NCBI RefSeq assembly: GCF_009765685.1
Contig: NZ_LMUY01000114.1
Coordinates: 34,021 to 98,020 of the forward strand
Source of the DNA: Acidisphaera sp. L21
Lineage (GTDB): Bacteria > Pseudomonadota > Alphaproteobacteria > Acetobacterales > Acetobacteraceae
Direction of reading: 5' to 3'
DNA length: 64,000 nucleotides
In this document: piece after piece, positions 37,682-48,406 of the stretch
Numbering within the stretch: position 1 is the first letter of the stretch
Layout of the letters: the number at the start of each line of letters is the position of its first letter
Translations under genes and position numbers: made by a program
The notes under the pieces: generated by a model
Seen by the model: the letters and a program-made list of their open reading frames with translations, nothing else
The model's database searches: none
What the model was told of the DNA's origin: nothing

Positions 37682-38791
37682 TTACTGAACCGTCTTCCAA
37701 TGGTTGGTCACGTCCGCCATGAAGCCGCGGACGGTGGCGTTGATGAATTCGAGATCAGCAGGCTTGAAACCCGGTGATGCCGCGACGTGCCCTTGCACCG
37801 AGGGGATCGTCACGTGACGGCCATCGGGGATCGCGGTCGTCGCCTCGATCCCTTCCTCAACCGGATTGTAAAGATCGAGTTCGCCGGACATGAGCAGGGC
37901 CTTTGCCTTGATGGACCGCAATGCGCGGATTGGGTCGCCGCCATAGATCGCCCTTCCGTCCACAAGCGTGTCACCCACATTGTGCCGGTCATAGGCCCAA
38001 CTCTGCGCAATCCAGTCATTTGCGTCGGCGCCGCTTTTCACCAAAGCGTCCTCCTGCGATTGGATCCAGGCCAGGACATCCAGCGGGGACGTGAATTGCT
38101 GCCGCATCGCGTTCGGCGTGCGGGTGCTCAACACCGACACGGCGGCGCGTGCCCGCAACCCGGCGATAGGCTCCTCCGTGTAATTGCCGCCCTTGAACGC
38201 GGGATCCAGCATCAGCGCTTGCCGCGTAGCTTGGTTCACCGCGATCGACCACGCAGACGTCCGGGCCATGGGCGTTAATGCAACAAGGCCGTCCATCATG
38301 TCCGGATGGCTGACGCCCCACTGCAATGTTTGCATCCCGCCCATCGACGCGCCGGCGACGGCAACCAAATGGGTAATGCCAAGATGCTGCAGCAGCAGGT
38401 ATTGGCTTTGAACCATGTCGCGGATCGCGAAATGCGGAAATGCCGTACCGTGCTGCGTGGTGCTGGTACTGGGCGATGTGGAGATGCCGTTGCCGATCGC
38501 GTCGGTTTTGATGACGAAAAGATGGTCGGTATCGAGTCCCTTGCCCGGCCCGATCAGATAATCGATTCTATGATGGTTTCCGCCGATCGCCGTTACCATG
38601 AGCACGGCGTTGCTTTTGGCTGCGTTCAGCGTGCCCTCGGTCATGTAGGCAATGTTGAAATCGTGTATGGTTTCTCCGCTTTCCAAAAGCAGGTCGCCGA
38701 TCTGAAACCGCTGTAAACCGGGCTCCGCCGCAGGCTGGGCCTTTACGGCCTGGCCAATCATCAAAAATGCAGCGAGTGCGAGCCATTTCAT
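37682..38791 (-). CDS. Secreted alpha/beta hydrolase, homoserine-acetyltransferase-like fold
   Basis: 369 aa with a signal peptide (MKWLALAAFLMIGQAVKAQ, cleavage near residue 18). The sequence follows the MetX pattern (IAYMTEGTLNAAKSNAVLMV) with nucleophile Ser149 in AGASMGGMQTLQWG, an acid in SGELDLYNP and a histidine in VQGHVAAS. True MetX enzymes are cytoplasmic, so a periplasmic relative probably acts as an esterase or acyltransferase on an unknown substrate. It stands alone, with no operon partners. Confidence 0.86.
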   Translation of the reverse strand: MKWLALAAFLMIGQAVKAQPAAEPGLQRFQIGDLLLESGETIHDFNIAYMTEGTLNAAKSNAVLMVTAIGGNHHRIDYLIGPGKGLDTDHLFVIKTDAIGNGISTSPSTSTTQHGTAFPHFAIRDMVQSQYLLLQHLGITHLVAVAGASMGGMQTLQWGVSHPDMMDGLVALTPMARTSAWSIAVNQATRQALMLDPAFKGGNYTEEPIAGLRARAAVSVLSTRTPNAMRQQFTSPLDVLAWIQSQEDALVKSGADANDWIAQSWAYDRHNVGDTLVDGRAIYGGDPIRALRSIKAKALLMSGELDLYNPVEEGIEATTAIPDGRHVTIPSVQGHVAASPGFKPADLEFINATVRGFMADVTNHWKTVQ

Positions 38792-38883: not shown

Positions 38884-40617
38884 CTAGGATACACCTGATT
38901 CCACAGGCGTAGACAACGCAGCCTGTTGGCGCAGGAGAATATACGCGCTCAATGCGTCGCGTATCCGCTCCGCCTGTCGTCGCTTTTCGGGAAATACACC
39001 GGTTGCGTGAACGAGCATTGTCGCGTTGGCTTCAAACAATAATAGGCGGCCGTCCACAAGCACCGCGCAGTCCACACCGCCATAGTCAAGATCCAGCCGC
39101 CGGACAACGGCGCGTAGTGCGTCGAATGCAGTGGCTCCCATCGCGGCAACGGGGTTTGCCAGAAATGCAGTTTCTTCGTGTCGCATGGCATCGGACATGG
39201 CGGTCCGCCAATAATGCACCAACCAGTCGTTGCCGATTGCCAGATGAACCGGGAATATCTCGTTACCGATGAAGACCAGGCGGTATTTCCGGAACCGCCC
39301 ATCGTTACCGCGGAAATCGTGAAAATGGCTGAGGTAGTAGTCGCCCGGCGCTGCGGTGGATGCGGCGGCGGTCAGTTGCTGTGCGATACTCAGCCGCTGC
39401 AAATGCTCCCCGCCATGCAATCCAACCGGGCGTAGCAGCAAGGGCGGCTGCAGCGCCTGCCCCTCTACCGCATCGGCATAGGATAGAACTTCGTCACGAC
39501 TCATCCGCACGAGGAATGGCACGACCAACCCTGCAATTCCCGTCAAACGTTCTGGCAAACGGTCGCGCCGGGTCGGAGGGATTTGCCAAGGAGGATTCAG
39601 CACCGGGTATGGAAACCGGCGCAACAATGATTCCGCCTGAGCCAAGAAGGGAGCGCCGGCGTCGGCGTCGCCAATTATGTTGAACGCGATCCCGATCGGC
39701 GGCGACTGCGCCATGATCGTGTCCCAATGATGATCGGCTGCCTCATTCGGCGGCAGGAACAGGGTCACGATTTCGAACCGATTCCGATCCAGCATGAAAT
39801 CAGTTGGCAGATTACACGATCCGGCGCCCCCGAGCAGCAGCAACCGAGCGGCCGGAGCCTCCCCCAGGCATGGTTGCACCATCACCCCCTGCCGCCGCCC
39901 CACGTCGGCGCGTTCTGTCTGCGCGTCGGCAAAATGGCCGGCGCGCTCCAGGCACTCCGCCAACAACAGGCGCAACTGCAACTCCATCGGAGTGGGAGCC
40001 GCATCGGGAGCCAAACCGACGATGGTGCCGAGCCCATGGCGACATGCGTGGGCCGCTCCGGTCGCATCGTCGAAGTATAGACAAGCCGTCGCCCGGTCGT
40101 GCCAGTCGCTGGCGGAGTGGGGATGCAGGGCGAGCACGGCGTTGAACGCCGGGTCGGCTTCCGGTCGATGCAGCGAGGCGAGTAGTTTGGCTCGGTTACA
40201 CTGCGTCGTCATGGAACCCGGCGCCAGTGCGACGGCAGTGTCCAGTGCCGCTACTGCCGCCTCGTGTTCACCGAGACGAAACAGCACCGCGCCATACTCA
40301 TGCCACGCGTTTGGATTGTCGGGCTCGACCTCAACCGTACGCGCGAAGCATGCGCGCGCCTGCGGGTCCGCTCCGAGGCGCTGGTGAATTTGTCCGAGCC
40401 GCAACCATGCCAGACCGTCATCCAGGTTGAGGACCAGGTAGCGGAGGAATAGTTCCCGAGCCTCCGCCAGACCGCCTTCATCATACCGAACCAGCGCCAG
40501 CAGCAGTAATCCACGGGGATCAACCGGTTGCTGTTCAAGCAGAGCCACAAGTATGCTGGCGCTCCCTTGCAAGTCCCCTGCGTTGAAACAGCGTATTGCG
40601 GATTGTAACGAGAGCAT
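38884..40617 (-). CDS. TPR-repeat protein with ATP-grasp-like C-terminal domain
   Basis: 577 aa. Residues 1-235 are tetratricopeptide repeats (ALVRYDEGGLAEARELFLRY, AWLRLGQIHQRLGADPQARA, WHEYGAVLFRLGEHEAAVAA). From about residue 255 the protein changes character: LLLLGGAGSCNLPTDFMLD, then LLLRPVGLHGGEHL, YRLVFIGNEIFPVHLAIGND and finally DYGGVDCAVLVDGRLLLFEANAT. The last segment, with Glu529 and Asn531 (E-x-N), looks like the Mg-ATP-binding end of an ATP-grasp ligase. The domain may ligate or modify a peptide or amino acid. No substrate gene is adjacent. Confidence 0.78.
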   Translation of the reverse strand: MLSLQSAIRCFNAGDLQGSASILVALLEQQPVDPRGLLLLALVRYDEGGLAEARELFLRYLVLNLDDGLAWLRLGQIHQRLGADPQARACFARTVEVEPDNPNAWHEYGAVLFRLGEHEAAVAALDTAVALAPGSMTTQCNRAKLLASLHRPEADPAFNAVLALHPHSASDWHDRATACLYFDDATGAAHACRHGLGTIVGLAPDAAPTPMELQLRLLLAECLERAGHFADAQTERADVGRRQGVMVQPCLGEAPAARLLLLGGAGSCNLPTDFMLDRNRFEIVTLFLPPNEAADHHWDTIMAQSPPIGIAFNIIGDADAGAPFLAQAESLLRRFPYPVLNPPWQIPPTRRDRLPERLTGIAGLVVPFLVRMSRDEVLSYADAVEGQALQPPLLLRPVGLHGGEHLQRLSIAQQLTAAASTAAPGDYYLSHFHDFRGNDGRFRKYRLVFIGNEIFPVHLAIGNDWLVHYWRTAMSDAMRHEETAFLANPVAAMGATAFDALRAVVRRLDLDYGGVDCAVLVDGRLLLFEANATMLVHATGVFPEKRRQAERIRDALSAYILLRQQAALSTPVESGVS

Positions 40618-43396: not shown

Positions 43397-44419
43397 TCAC
43401 AATAGACCCGGAGATAGTTTGTCGCGCTCCCAGGCCAGCAGGAACCCGACCTCGCGTTCCAGCCAGGCGGCCGACAGAACTTCGCGTCCCCATTCTGCCG
43501 TCCGCCCGGCATATTCGCCCATCAGCCAGATGTGCCGGATCGCCACGAACAGGGGGGTTGCCGCCTCGTCCACCGGCGTCATAGGGCGAACGGTCCGGTA
43601 ACCCTGGTCGAACGCTTGCCACACGGCATGCCGCCGCCGCCCGAACGACACCTGCGCCCAGAGATGCACCGCCAAGTCGTACGCCAGGTAGCCGAACCCG
43701 CCATCGTCAAAATCGAACAACACTGCTTGCCCGGCGTAACGGCCGGCCGCGGGAATACGAGCGTTCAGCCCGTGACAATCGCCGTGGCAACGCGTGCGTG
43801 TCAGATCACGATCAACGCGTTCAACCGCCGTGGCGAGCCGCTGCGCCAGCGCTGTCAGGTCACCCCGGGCCTGTGGCGCTTCGAAATCGAGCGCCAGCAC
43901 CGCCGCCACTTGCCGGTGCAGCAAGTGATCCAAATCCAGCCGGTAGCGCCCCTCCGCGCGGCCAGGGTACCGATCGGCGGCATGATGCACGCGGGCCAGG
44001 GCCGCCCCTTGGACCCGCGCGTCATCGGGATTGTCGAGATTCGGCGGACGTCCGGCGACATGCTGGAACAACACGGCGGCGCGGGGACCATCCGGTAGTG
44101 CAACACTGGTGAACAGTGCGCTGTCTCTCGCCGGCACGGCTTCTGCAACTGCCACACCCTCGGCACCGAGGAAGGCGAGGAATGCTGTTTCGGAGGCGAC
44201 GTCGGCTGGCCCGCGGGCGCGGTGACCGGCGACACGGAATATGAAGCGGTTCCCAATCCCGGCGTTCACCTCGTAGACGTCGTTGAAACCGCGATGCAGC
44301 AGGTGGCAGGTTACGCTTCGCCCTACATCGAATTGCTTGGTCACGAATTCGGCGACGGCCTCCGCCGAGGCGGTCGCATAGCTCACAGGGAGTTTGGCAG
44401 GGGTTGAGGACGGCGACAT
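43397..44419 (-). CDS. Phosphotransferase/kinase-like enzyme (APH family)
   Basis: 340 aa from the ATG at 44419, giving MSPSSTPAKLPVSYA; the frame is open to 44644 but the extra part is not family-like. The Brenner motif is RCHGDCHGLN (catalytic Asp) and the metal-binding motif is VLFDFDDGGFGYLAYDLAVH. The N-lobe begins near FNDVYEVNAGIGNRFIFRV. The closest groups are homoserine-kinase-like and SrkA-type stress kinases rather than drug-resistance enzymes. It is divergent from the GGT-family gene and convergent with the hydrolase at 42241. Confidence 0.88.
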   Translation of the reverse strand: MSPSSTPAKLPVSYATASAEAVAEFVTKQFDVGRSVTCHLLHRGFNDVYEVNAGIGNRFIFRVAGHRARGPADVASETAFLAFLGAEGVAVAEAVPARDSALFTSVALPDGPRAAVLFQHVAGRPPNLDNPDDARVQGAALARVHHAADRYPGRAEGRYRLDLDHLLHRQVAAVLALDFEAPQARGDLTALAQRLATAVERVDRDLTRTRCHGDCHGLNARIPAAGRYAGQAVLFDFDDGGFGYLAYDLAVHLWAQVSFGRRRHAVWQAFDQGYRTVRPMTPVDEAATPLFVAIRHIWLMGEYAGRTAEWGREVLSAAWLEREVGFLLAWERDKLSPGLL

Positions 44420-44625
44420 CAAGCAATGCTGAGCTCGCCGGCAATGGTCTGCAAGGGTGCGGAAACGACTCAGATGCTGAGCCAATGCGGGCTGGCGCCG
44501 TATTGGGGGCCAAGATGCTCGGTAACGGGTTCCACATTGCAAACCGAGGATGCCCGATATTGAATGGGTCGCCGTCCCTGCGTGCCGGGTCTTCTTCGCG
44601 CCTTCCCAGAACAGAGGAAAAAGCC

Positions 44626-46377
44626 ATGGCGTTCGCTCTGCCAACGACGAAATCCAACCGTCCGCTGCTGATGGGCAACAGCCACGTGGTGGCGGCAGGA
44701 CATTACCTGTCCGCCCTGGCCGGGCTGGAGATGCTGGAAGCGGGCGGTAATGCGATCGATGCCGGGGTCGCCGCGGGCATTGCCACCGGTGTGCTGGAAG
44801 GCACCCATGTCAGCTTCGCCGGCGTGGCGCCCATCATCATCCGCATGGCCACCGGCGTGGTGGAGACGATAAGCGGTCTCGGCTATTGGCCGGCTGCCGC
44901 CACCCCCGACTATTTCGCACAACATTTTGGCGGCAAAATCCCGCCGGGGGTTGCCCGAACCGTGATCCCCGCCGCGCCAGATGCCTGGATCACCGCGCTG
45001 GAGCGCCACGGCACGATGAGCTTCGCCGACGTCGCGGCACCATCCATCCGACTCTGCAACGAGGGCTTTCCGGCGCACGCCTTCATGGCAAACTTCATCG
45101 CCAAGCGCCGCGCCATGATCGAACGCTACCCGAGTACGGTCGAGATCTATCTTCCCGGCGGCCAACCCCCCGCCATGGGACAGGTGTTCGTGCAAACAGA
45201 TCTGGGTGCGACGCTGCAGTACATGGCGGATGAAGATCGTGCGCAGAGCCGGCATGGCCGTCTCGCCGGGCTCGCCGCAGCGCGCGCCTCGTTCTATCGC
45301 GGCGACATTGCGCAGAAGATCGTTGCCTTCCATCGGGCGGAGGGCGGGTTGATCACCGCGAAGGATCTTGCCGGTTTCCGGGTGGGTATCGAAAAGCCCG
45401 TGGAGGGGCGGTTTGGGGATCTCATGGTTTGGACCTGTGGACCGTGGTGTCAGGGACCGATGCTACTGCAAACGCTGAACCTGCTGGACCCTGCCGCCCT
45501 GCGTAGCGCCGGCCACAACTCAGCGGAGGCGATCCACGCCATAACCGAGGCCATCAAGCTCGCCGCCGCCGATCGTGAAGCCTATTACGGCGATCCGCGA
45601 TTCATGGACGTGCCGATCGATGCCTTGGTGAGCCCAGCCTATGCCGCCAGGCGCCGCATGCTGATCGATCCTGGCCGCGCCGCGCCCGACATGCCGGCGC
45701 CCGGCTCCGTCACCGGCGAACCGTGGCATGGAGACCTGCTGCGCAATTCGCTGGACCACGCCCCGGCACCGATCGAGGAGGATGAGAGCGCCGCCGACAC
45801 CTCGTATTGCTGCGCCGTCGATCGCTGGGGCAACGTATTCTCCGCCACGCCCAGCGACGGGAACACGGCCTGCCCGGTGATCCCCGGCACCGGCTTCGTC
45901 GCGTCCGGCCGCGGGTCGCAATCACGGGCCGATCCGGACCATCCGGCTTGCCTGGCGCCGGGCAAGCGCCCACGCCTTACGCCCAACCCGGCGATTGCGA
46001 TGAAGGCCGGTGAATACGTCATGCCGTTCGGGACGCCCGGCGGGGACGTGCAGGTGCAGGCGATGGTGCAATGCCTGGCCAACATGGCGGTCTATGGCAT
46101 GGATCCGCAATCAGCCGTTGAGGCGCCACGCTTCGCCAGCTACAGCTTTCCATCCTCATTCGCCCCATACGACTATCGTCCCGGCGTGCTGGCCGTCGAA
46201 AATCGCATTAGGACGGAAACAGCCGACACGCTGGCGGCGAAGGGTCACATCATTGAATGGTGGCCGGCTTTGGCTGGCGAGGCAGGTTCGGTCTGCATGA
46301 TCCACCACGATCTGAACAGCAACGTGAAGTCCGGTGGCGCCGATCCGCGGCGAACGGCCTATGCGATGGGGCGGTAA
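44626..46377 (+). CDS. Gamma-glutamyltransferase family protein (Ntn hydrolase)
   Basis: 583 aa from the ATG at 44626 (AGAGGAAA upstream). The family N-terminus reads MLEAGGNAIDAGVAAGIATG. Autocleavage is expected before Thr392 in AADTSYCCAVDRWGNVFSAT, giving large and small chains. GKRPRLTPNPAIAMKAG and PFGTPGGDVQ are small-chain signatures. Unlike classical GGT there is no signal peptide, so it may be cytoplasmic, as in the glutamyl or cephalosporin-acylase-like and oxamate-type relatives. A remnant of a formamidase follows, suggesting that the original context was amide breakdown. Confidence 0.9.
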   Translation: MAFALPTTKSNRPLLMGNSHVVAAGHYLSALAGLEMLEAGGNAIDAGVAAGIATGVLEGTHVSFAGVAPIIIRMATGVVETISGLGYWPAAATPDYFAQHFGGKIPPGVARTVIPAAPDAWITALERHGTMSFADVAAPSIRLCNEGFPAHAFMANFIAKRRAMIERYPSTVEIYLPGGQPPAMGQVFVQTDLGATLQYMADEDRAQSRHGRLAGLAAARASFYRGDIAQKIVAFHRAEGGLITAKDLAGFRVGIEKPVEGRFGDLMVWTCGPWCQGPMLLQTLNLLDPAALRSAGHNSAEAIHAITEAIKLAAADREAYYGDPRFMDVPIDALVSPAYAARRRMLIDPGRAAPDMPAPGSVTGEPWHGDLLRNSLDHAPAPIEEDESAADTSYCCAVDRWGNVFSATPSDGNTACPVIPGTGFVASGRGSQSRADPDHPACLAPGKRPRLTPNPAIAMKAGEYVMPFGTPGGDVQVQAMVQCLANMAVYGMDPQSAVEAPRFASYSFPSSFAPYDYRPGVLAVENRIRTETADTLAAKGHIIEWWPALAGEAGSVCMIHHDLNSNVKSGGADPRRTAYAMGR

Positions 46378-46611: not shown

Positions 46612-48198
46612 CTATGCGGACTTCGTCACGTTCCAGAATATCTGCAATGGCGTCGGGGCGAAGCCAGCCAGGGTGCGGCGCCAGGCAAAGGGGGAGGCGA
46701 ATTGCCCGGCGGGAATATATGGGATCACCTGCCAAAGACGCTGCTGCAGGGCGTCCAGCGCCACTCGCTTGGCGTCCGGCTCAGTCTGCGCGAGATAGCT
46801 TGTCTTGAGCGCGGAGGCCTCATCATCACAGGCGCCGCCAACGAGCGCACGTGACCCACAGGTCGTGTCCGCCGTCTGGTTGGTCAACGGCTGGTGGAGC
46901 GAGGCACCTGTGCCATAGCTGGCATAGATGTTCCAACTGCCATTCGACGGGTATTTGCTGGTGACGCTGGTCATCTGACCCCACGCCATCATCCGCAAGT
47001 CGACGTTGAAGCCGATGTCGCTCATGCGCCGGGCCAGCACCGCCGTCATGCCGCCGATCGGGGGCAACTCGTCGGTTCCGATGACGACGACCGGCTCACC
47101 GTTATAGCCCGACGCAGCCAACATCCGCCTGGCCTCGTCCAGGTTGGACTGCGCGTAAGGTTCGCTTCCGGCCAACGTCTCGTTCGGGGAGCCGCAGACG
47201 AAGAAAGAGTGGCATGGGGAAAACCAGGCCGGATCCCCGACGGCGGCCTGCATGAACTCCGTCTGGTCAACCATCTTGGCGACTGCCCGGCGAACGAGGA
47301 CATTATCGAACGGCGCCTCACTCTGGTTCATCCGGATCGTGCCGACGGAGGGTAGTGGGAGGAGCCGATCGATGATGACATCCGGGCTCCGGCGCAGTGT
47401 CGGCAGCAGGTCGATCGGCACCGTGTCCCAGAAATCCATCTCACCCGCGATCAGGGCGGCAGCGGCGGTGGCGGCATCCGGGATCACATGCCATTCTAGC
47501 CGGTCGATTTCGACGATGCGGGCGCCTGCGAGTCCATCTGGCGGTTCGCTCCGCGGGATGTAGTCGGGGTTCTTCTCGTAGACGACCAAAGATCCCGGCA
47601 CCCACTCGGACGCCACGAAGCGGAACGGGCCCGAGCCGATAATGTCTGTCACGGCCTTATTGGGGTCGGTCTGCGCATCGCGCTCGCGCATGATCTGCGG
47701 CAGGATGGCACCGACGGCACCTAGGGTATACTCGACCCACGGATAGGGCGCCTTCAGTCGCAGGCTGAAGACGATGTCGCTCTCGATGTCATAGGCGGCG
47801 ATCTGGGCGGCCAGGCGCCCGCCGGACGCATCCTTGGCCATCCATCGCTTCAGCGAGGCGACGACATCCCGCGATCGGACCGGCTGGCCATCGTGGAACA
47901 GCATGCCGGCACGCAGAGTGAAGCGATACACCAGCCGGTCGGACGAGACTGTGTATGATTCTGCCGCCATCGGCCGAACGTTCAACTTGGAATCCCACGT
48001 CAGCAACGTCTCGTAGACCAGGGCGCCGTGCATCTTGGTGATCTGCGCGCCGCTCAGATGCGGGTCGAGAACGCGAAGATCTGCCTGGGGAATGACCTTG
48101 AGCACGCTAGGTCCCGCGGCGCGGCCCGGCGTCGTGGACAGCCCGACCAGCGTTGCGGCCGCGGCGGTTGTCATTAAGGATCGCCGGCTGGCTGTCAT
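46612..48198 (-). CDS. Orphan ABC transporter binding protein, family 5 (peptide type)
   Basis: 528 aa from the ATG at 48198 (a GTG two codons upstream is possible). The signal peptide carries an RR pair, MTASRRSLMTTAAAATLVGL, with cleavage near residue 28. The mature part has PQADLRVLDPHLSGAQITKM, AESYTVSSDRLVYRFTLRAG, FHDGQPVRSRDVVASLKRWM and the SEAPFDNVLVRRAVAKMVDQ region, all typical of DppA/OppA proteins. No permease or ATPase is adjacent in this direction; the 48808-55514 importer has its own binding protein. It may use that importer or the one at the left edge. Confidence 0.92.
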   Translation of the reverse strand: MTASRRSLMTTAAAATLVGLSTTPGRAAGPSVLKVIPQADLRVLDPHLSGAQITKMHGALVYETLLTWDSKLNVRPMAAESYTVSSDRLVYRFTLRAGMLFHDGQPVRSRDVVASLKRWMAKDASGGRLAAQIAAYDIESDIVFSLRLKAPYPWVEYTLGAVGAILPQIMRERDAQTDPNKAVTDIIGSGPFRFVASEWVPGSLVVYEKNPDYIPRSEPPDGLAGARIVEIDRLEWHVIPDAATAAAALIAGEMDFWDTVPIDLLPTLRRSPDVIIDRLLPLPSVGTIRMNQSEAPFDNVLVRRAVAKMVDQTEFMQAAVGDPAWFSPCHSFFVCGSPNETLAGSEPYAQSNLDEARRMLAASGYNGEPVVVIGTDELPPIGGMTAVLARRMSDIGFNVDLRMMAWGQMTSVTSKYPSNGSWNIYASYGTGASLHQPLTNQTADTTCGSRALVGGACDDEASALKTSYLAQTEPDAKRVALDALQQRLWQVIPYIPAGQFASPFAWRRTLAGFAPTPLQIFWNVTKSA

Positions 48199-48406
48199 TC
48201 TCACGTCCCACTCGACTGCCGAAACACCCTATATGGGCGGCCTCAGACGCTCAATGCCGTGCGGACGATCGTGCTGCTGGCAGGTGTCCGCACCGGCGCG
48301 GCGTCGCTTCTAAATCACCACTGCGCGATTGTGTGATAATCCGGCAACTACGGAGTCCGGCGGGCATTGAGGTGACAGAACTAGGCACTCGTAAGGACCC
48401 GCCCCC

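Follow-up and report, generated by a model that had tools for sequence, protein, structure and literature searches.

The window analysed here is a 64-kb stretch of DNA from Acidisphaera sp. L21, and one of its genes raises the question of what a protein built from TPR repeats and an ATP-grasp-like domain might join together. A preliminary description, made by reading the sequence, had proposed a peptide or amino-acid ligase. That proposal is plausible, and the modelled fold points to an ATP-dependent carboxylate-amine or similar ligase. The data presented below are best read as pointing to an ATP-grasp ligase with a TPR docking arm whose substrate would be a protein, with flagellin as one candidate. 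On balance, the evidence tilts slightly towards regarding the window protein as a TPR-docked carboxylate-amine ligase.

The gene and its TPR arm

The open reading frame was found exactly in the interval first assigned to it, 38884..40617, as a single frame of 577 amino acids with an ATG start. It is located on the minus strand, a point on which the preliminary description was silent, and the plus strand of the same interval contains many stops in the frame translated. The N-terminal TPRs, earlier put at 235 residues, were recovered by several Pfam TPR models above their curated cut-offs (matches included TPR_2, E 2.7e-12; TPR_14, E 2.5e-12; TPR_16, E 3.9e-11). In the AlphaFold2 model they form a solenoid of 14 helices at residues 4-242 (39892..40608, minus strand), in keeping with the tandem 34-residue helix pairs of TPR proteins. 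No signal or membrane segment was apparent in the protein sequence, and for this reason the enzyme is probably cytosolic and soluble.

Fold of the C-terminal domain

The full-length AlphaFold2 model, built on an alignment of 71 homologues, reached a mean pLDDT of 93.8 and placed an alpha/beta domain at residues 245-570 after the TPR helices. Modelled alone, the C-terminal domain gave a pLDDT of 92.9. When this domain alone was compared with known structures by Foldseek, the best PDB match was the D-Ala:D-Ala ligase (Ddl) 3n8d (E 3.5e-12), with the further Ddl structures 2i87 and 4me6 among the best matches, and LysX/ArgX 5k2m was found at E 1.3e-11 with a target TM of 0.67. The structure prediction that had been proposed as a check therefore returned a complete ATP-grasp domain. 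It comprises a pre-ATP-grasp subdomain at about residues 245-340 (39598..39885, minus strand; its boundary follows from the models and the template of PMC4431377) and a catalytic core at about residues 341-540 (38998..39597, minus strand; models and Foldseek matches to Ddl and LysX). The strand pair quoted at the outset, YRLVFIGNEIFPVHL, corresponds to residues 445-459 and falls on the adjacent strands 442-450 and 453-462.

One scan of genome contigs with the C-terminal domain alone retrieved 194 relatives among its candidate stretches, of which 80 were kept. Together with the Foldseek score for Ddl, this indicates that the ATP-grasp observation is not due to chance. No Pfam family was matched by the C-terminal half of the window protein, and its sole NCBIfam match was TIGR04187 (ATP-grasp maturase), at 13.7 bits against a cut-off of 350.

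Catalytic residues

Residue conservation was counted over 105 aligned C-terminal domains, in the numbering of the window protein. The positions were compared with the ATP-grasp template of basic ATP-contacting residues, a strand-4 acidic residue and a strand-5 ExN motif (PMC4431377), equivalence being assigned by sequence position and predicted strands, without superposed structures. The basic residue of the linker, Lys in most ATP-grasps, is R351 (39565..39567, minus strand), and that at the end of the RAGNYA strand (strand 2), likewise usually Lys, is R396 (39430..39432, minus strand); both are Arg in 104 of the 105 domains. By position, two basic ATP-contacting residues are thus present, with Arg for Lys at both. 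The acidic residue of strand 4 is D516 (39070..39072, minus strand; 105/105), a predicted Mg ligand, and the ExN motif of strand 5 is E529-A530-N531 (39025..39033, minus strand), with E in 105/105 and N in 94/105, so that the elements of the kinase-like domain are in place. The DYGGVDCAVL...LFEANAT ending singled out in the preliminary description spans the strands which bear these residues. Neither the fold nor the ATP ligands were therefore missing, but the two canonical lysines proved to be arginines family-wide.

Two further motifs were observed. In RKYR, residues 443-446 (39280..39291, minus strand), R443, K444 and R446 are invariant in the 105 domains. The family-specific motif H458...W465..H468-Y469 (39211..39246, minus strand) has an invariant H458 and nearly invariant W465, H468 and Y469, and it is a possible acceptor pocket. 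Judging by these residues, the family looks like a group of active carboxylate-amine ligases with an acceptor pocket of their own.

Distribution of the family

The kept relatives include proteobacteria, acidobacteria, Eremiobacterota and a few Bacillota. Of 299 sampled Pseudomonadota genomes, 22 carried the family, as did 90 of the 398 sampled from the Acetobacteraceae, the taxonomic family of the window. The window genome holds three members on three contigs; the two besides the window copy had not been noticed before. Among the 398 Acetobacteraceae no close orthologue of the window protein was detected, the best among the matches listed having 46% identity over part of the domain; outside these genomes, a partial match of 47% covered only 153 residues. 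Some carriers are tractable, such as Rhizobium tropici CIAT 899, in which a member is located on a megaplasmid.

For the neighbourhoods, 143 loci of at least 8 kb were examined, which do not count as 143 independent cases since some overlap or are near-relatives. Eight loci (L008, L023, L026, L041, L058, L070, L158 and L240) carry a further family member in the same stretch. In L023, L041 and L058, loci of the same kind in three genomes, two different members are divergently paired, a hint of cooperation between two subclades. A Rhizobium tumorigenes member (L118:7683-9395) carries an extra C-terminal Cys/His pattern, by eye reminiscent of C39-type peptidases.

Association with a PLP decarboxylase

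Five acidobacterial members (L027, L028, L046, L049 and L083) carry a group II PLP decarboxylase (PF00282) fused ahead of the TPRs, and in a short-armed subclade this decarboxylase is encoded by a neighbouring gene in operons. This link of the relatives, like the weaker flagellar one described below, was absent from the preliminary description. Among the sampled Pseudomonadota genomes, the decarboxylase subfamily was found in 17/22 family-positive versus 3/277 family-negative genomes (Fisher p 1e-20), a value which overstates independence because the sampled genomes are related and because linked loci, in part from the same genomes, had served to build the profile. The limit of about 680 bits was fixed after viewing the list, at a gap below which the next match scored 639 bits. 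When the listed positions were compared, the decarboxylase was within about 1.7 kb of a family member in 16 of the 17 genomes. Within the Acetobacteraceae the association was weak (5/9 versus 3/17, p 0.08).

The window genome has one copy of the decarboxylase, on contig C35 (L175 / G000:C35:2-1267), which is cut by the contig edge and adjoins none of the three family members. For the window gene the link is a genome-level association only, and the decarboxylase was rejected as its own partner on the grounds of non-adjacency and of the p value of 0.08. By eye, a cysteine-synthase-like gene lies beside the copy on C35.

Other genes were noted at related loci. A second PLP-like gene of about 440-590 amino acids (alignment A3) turns up repeatedly next to the genes for the ATP-grasp protein and the decarboxylase, often so in the short-armed subclade (L118:9430-10971, L163:5182-6825, L166, L168, L169, L170, L172, L173 and L021:3491-4984). 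The members scanned had no Pfam match and no clear PDB relation by sequence; the invariant SGT, D270 and K297 make them look like fold-type I PLP enzymes as far as motif reading goes. At L188:6780-10497 the decarboxylase adjoins a PLP-like gene, and the scanned stretch holds no member of the ATP-grasp family. In four loci a SerC-like class V aminotransferase replaces the decarboxylase at the ATP-grasp gene (L016:9836-10912, L074:1721-2812, L117:8915-10009 and L174:5561-6805).

These partners bear on a rival explanation, a small-molecule amide synthetase that would couple the product of the decarboxylase or the SerC-like aminotransferase, an amine or amino acid, to another metabolite, with the TPRs serving oligomerisation or complex assembly. 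The decarboxylase fusions and operons, the aminotransferase at the four loci and the second PLP-like gene in the cassette all point in this direction, and there is a precedent of a PLP decarboxylase with an ATP-grasp amide ligase in MfnA/MfnD of methanofuran synthesis (PMC8141765). However, the N-terminal arms, which range from about 95 to more than 500 residues across the family, are likelier to dock a protein than to bind a metabolite, and no partner gene of this sort accompanies the window copy. This explanation is possible, but we do not favour it.

Association with flagellar genes

Flagellar genes adjoin family members in about nine lineages. The member in L061 lies between the FlbT and FlgE genes, those in L163, L164, L166 and L168 are beside FlgK, FlgL and FlbT, and that in L028 directly follows MotB; in L026 flhB is 268 bp away, and in L257 and L258 flagellin is at most 0.7 kb away. 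As a test, loci with such a gene within 10 kb were counted, giving 16/143 for flagellar genes versus 14/143 when some 50 housekeeping genes from E. coli served as the control, a comparison which favours the flagellar count, as only the flagellar query set included proteins from these very loci, and which was made at one of more than one distance limit looked at. The adjacency is only modestly above background; with the control this close it was rejected as proof and serves as a lead only. In the Acetobacteraceae, 65 of 68 high-quality genomes with a family member had flagellin, against 206 of 264 without one (p 0.0004, hand count), a difference confounded by the loss of flagella in reduced genomes.

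The corresponding explanation is a modifier of flagellin or a hook-associated protein, in which the TPRs would bind flagellin and the ATP-grasp domain would amidate surface carboxylates or add an amino acid. It narrows the best explanation to one kind of target, and the rivals overlap in part. Besides the neighbours and the co-occurrence, it draws on FlmG of Caulobacter, whose TPR half binds flagellins, so that a TPR arm can bring an enzyme to flagellin (PMC7591256), and on the ATP-grasp proteins found in Shewanella (sfmE) and C. difficile within gene clusters for the modification of flagellin. Apart from the housekeeping control, two findings stand against it: the window copy is not near flagellar genes, the flagellins of its genome being on contigs C101 and C91, and at least one near-complete family-positive genome (G428) had no flagellin at the limit used. 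We consider this explanation doubtful, and the same holds for flagellin as the target of the family in general; for the window copy itself flagellin is a less probable target still.

Neighbourhood of the window gene and weaker alternatives

Downstream by 93 bp and on the same strand, an alpha/beta hydrolase gene (37682..38791, minus strand) is a possible operon partner. The divergent gene 103 bp upstream, of the beta-lactamase fold (PF00144; 40720..41856, plus strand), is probably unrelated. Neighbour clustering revealed no recurrence of either gene at related loci, and with the profiles used the window yielded neither a decarboxylase nor a flagellar gene nor another member of the family. A universal operon partner was rejected, none being found across 93 loci or in the Acetobacteraceae loci; many family members adjoin nothing recurrent. 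RND/MFS efflux genes are neighbours in some related loci. Elsewhere in the window, reading of the translations placed a gamma-glutamyltranspeptidase-like gene next to the binding protein of a peptide-type ABC transporter (44404-46377 and 46612-48204).

Two other readings of the domain fare poorly. The replacement of both canonical ATP-contacting lysines would suit a catalytically dead ATP-grasp acting as nucleotide sensor or scaffold, but the near-invariance of the Lys-to-Arg swap, the conserved Mg ligands and the presence of Arg at these positions in carbamoyl-phosphate synthetase, whose profiles match the family weakly, make this very improbable. A graspetide-type RiPP maturase with a ribosomally made precursor peptide as its substrate, for which the fold and the TPR proteins reported near some graspetide loci (PMC8939145) might speak, was rejected as the most improbable of all, given that neither flanking gap holds a small ORF of note (the preliminary description had seen no obvious precursor peptide nearby) and that the maturase model matched far below threshold.

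Proposed mechanism and meaning

For the TPR-docked ligase favoured here, the following sequence of steps may be proposed. The TPR solenoid would dock a protein or peptide substrate, as the architecture and the analogy with FlmG suggest, while the ATP-grasp domain would bind Mg-ATP through R351, R396, D516, E529 and N531. A carboxylate would then be phosphorylated to an acyl-phosphate, as is expected from the superfamily, and attack by an amine would yield the amide. We infer ATP turnover, the acyl-phosphate, the acceptor and the TPR partner alike. With less confidence, the amine might be supplied by the decarboxylase in members linked to it, and flagellin or another flagellar protein might be the target in some lineages. 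The most specific version, where flagellin or some other surface protein would be selected by the TPR arm and the Arg/Arg ATP-grasp domain would attach the decarboxylase-made amine as an amide counterpart of FlmG glycosylation, is unlikely.

The family is widespread in bacteria, and on the catalytic domain of the window protein all curated Pfam and NCBIfam models stay below cut-off. The decarboxylase fusions and operons make the amine donor of the linked members a testable guess. Should the partner of the TPR arm prove to be a flagellar protein, amide chemistry would be added to flagellin modification.

Comparison with known systems

No description of the family was found in the literature searched for TPR combined with ATP-grasp or RimK, and in sequence terms the family looks set apart from both RimK and R2K. 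It shares the ATP-grasp fold and catalytic layout with RimK/LysX/ArgX (TIGR00768, PF08443), and TIGR00768 was matched by 22/71 members at E <= 0.01. This model was not among the NCBIfam matches of the window protein up to E 1, and no match in its genome reached the RimK cut-off of 143.4 bits. Unlike RimK/LysX/ArgX, the present family has Arg at both ATP positions, the H...W..HY motif and the TPR arm. Ddl structures are the best PDB fold matches of the ATP-grasp domain, but identity is 11-17%, the peptidoglycan context is absent and the acceptor-side residues differ.

The R2K clade (CDC123; PF14243, PF18299), described as predicted protein-peptide ligases, is approached by weak Pfam matches, which 9 of 62 members show to the one model and 7 to the other. 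Its definition demands a linker without basic residue and two lysines (or Lys plus Lys/Arg) in RAGNYA (PMC4431377), whereas the present family retains the basic R351 in the linker and has Arg (R396) on the RAGNYA strand. Membership was rejected because R351 fills the linker position.

The remaining two systems are similar in organization. In MfnA/MfnD (PMC8141765) a PLP decarboxylase also feeds an amine to an amide-forming ligase, but these are separate enzymes with no TPR reported, and the likeness noted here is one of pathway. FlmG (596 aa; PMC7591256) differs in its catalytic domain, a GT-B glycosyltransferase where the present family has an ATP-grasp. Both are cytoplasmic (the window enzyme probably so), and both place a TPR substrate arm at the N-terminus and a modifying enzyme, putative in the present family, at the C-terminus.
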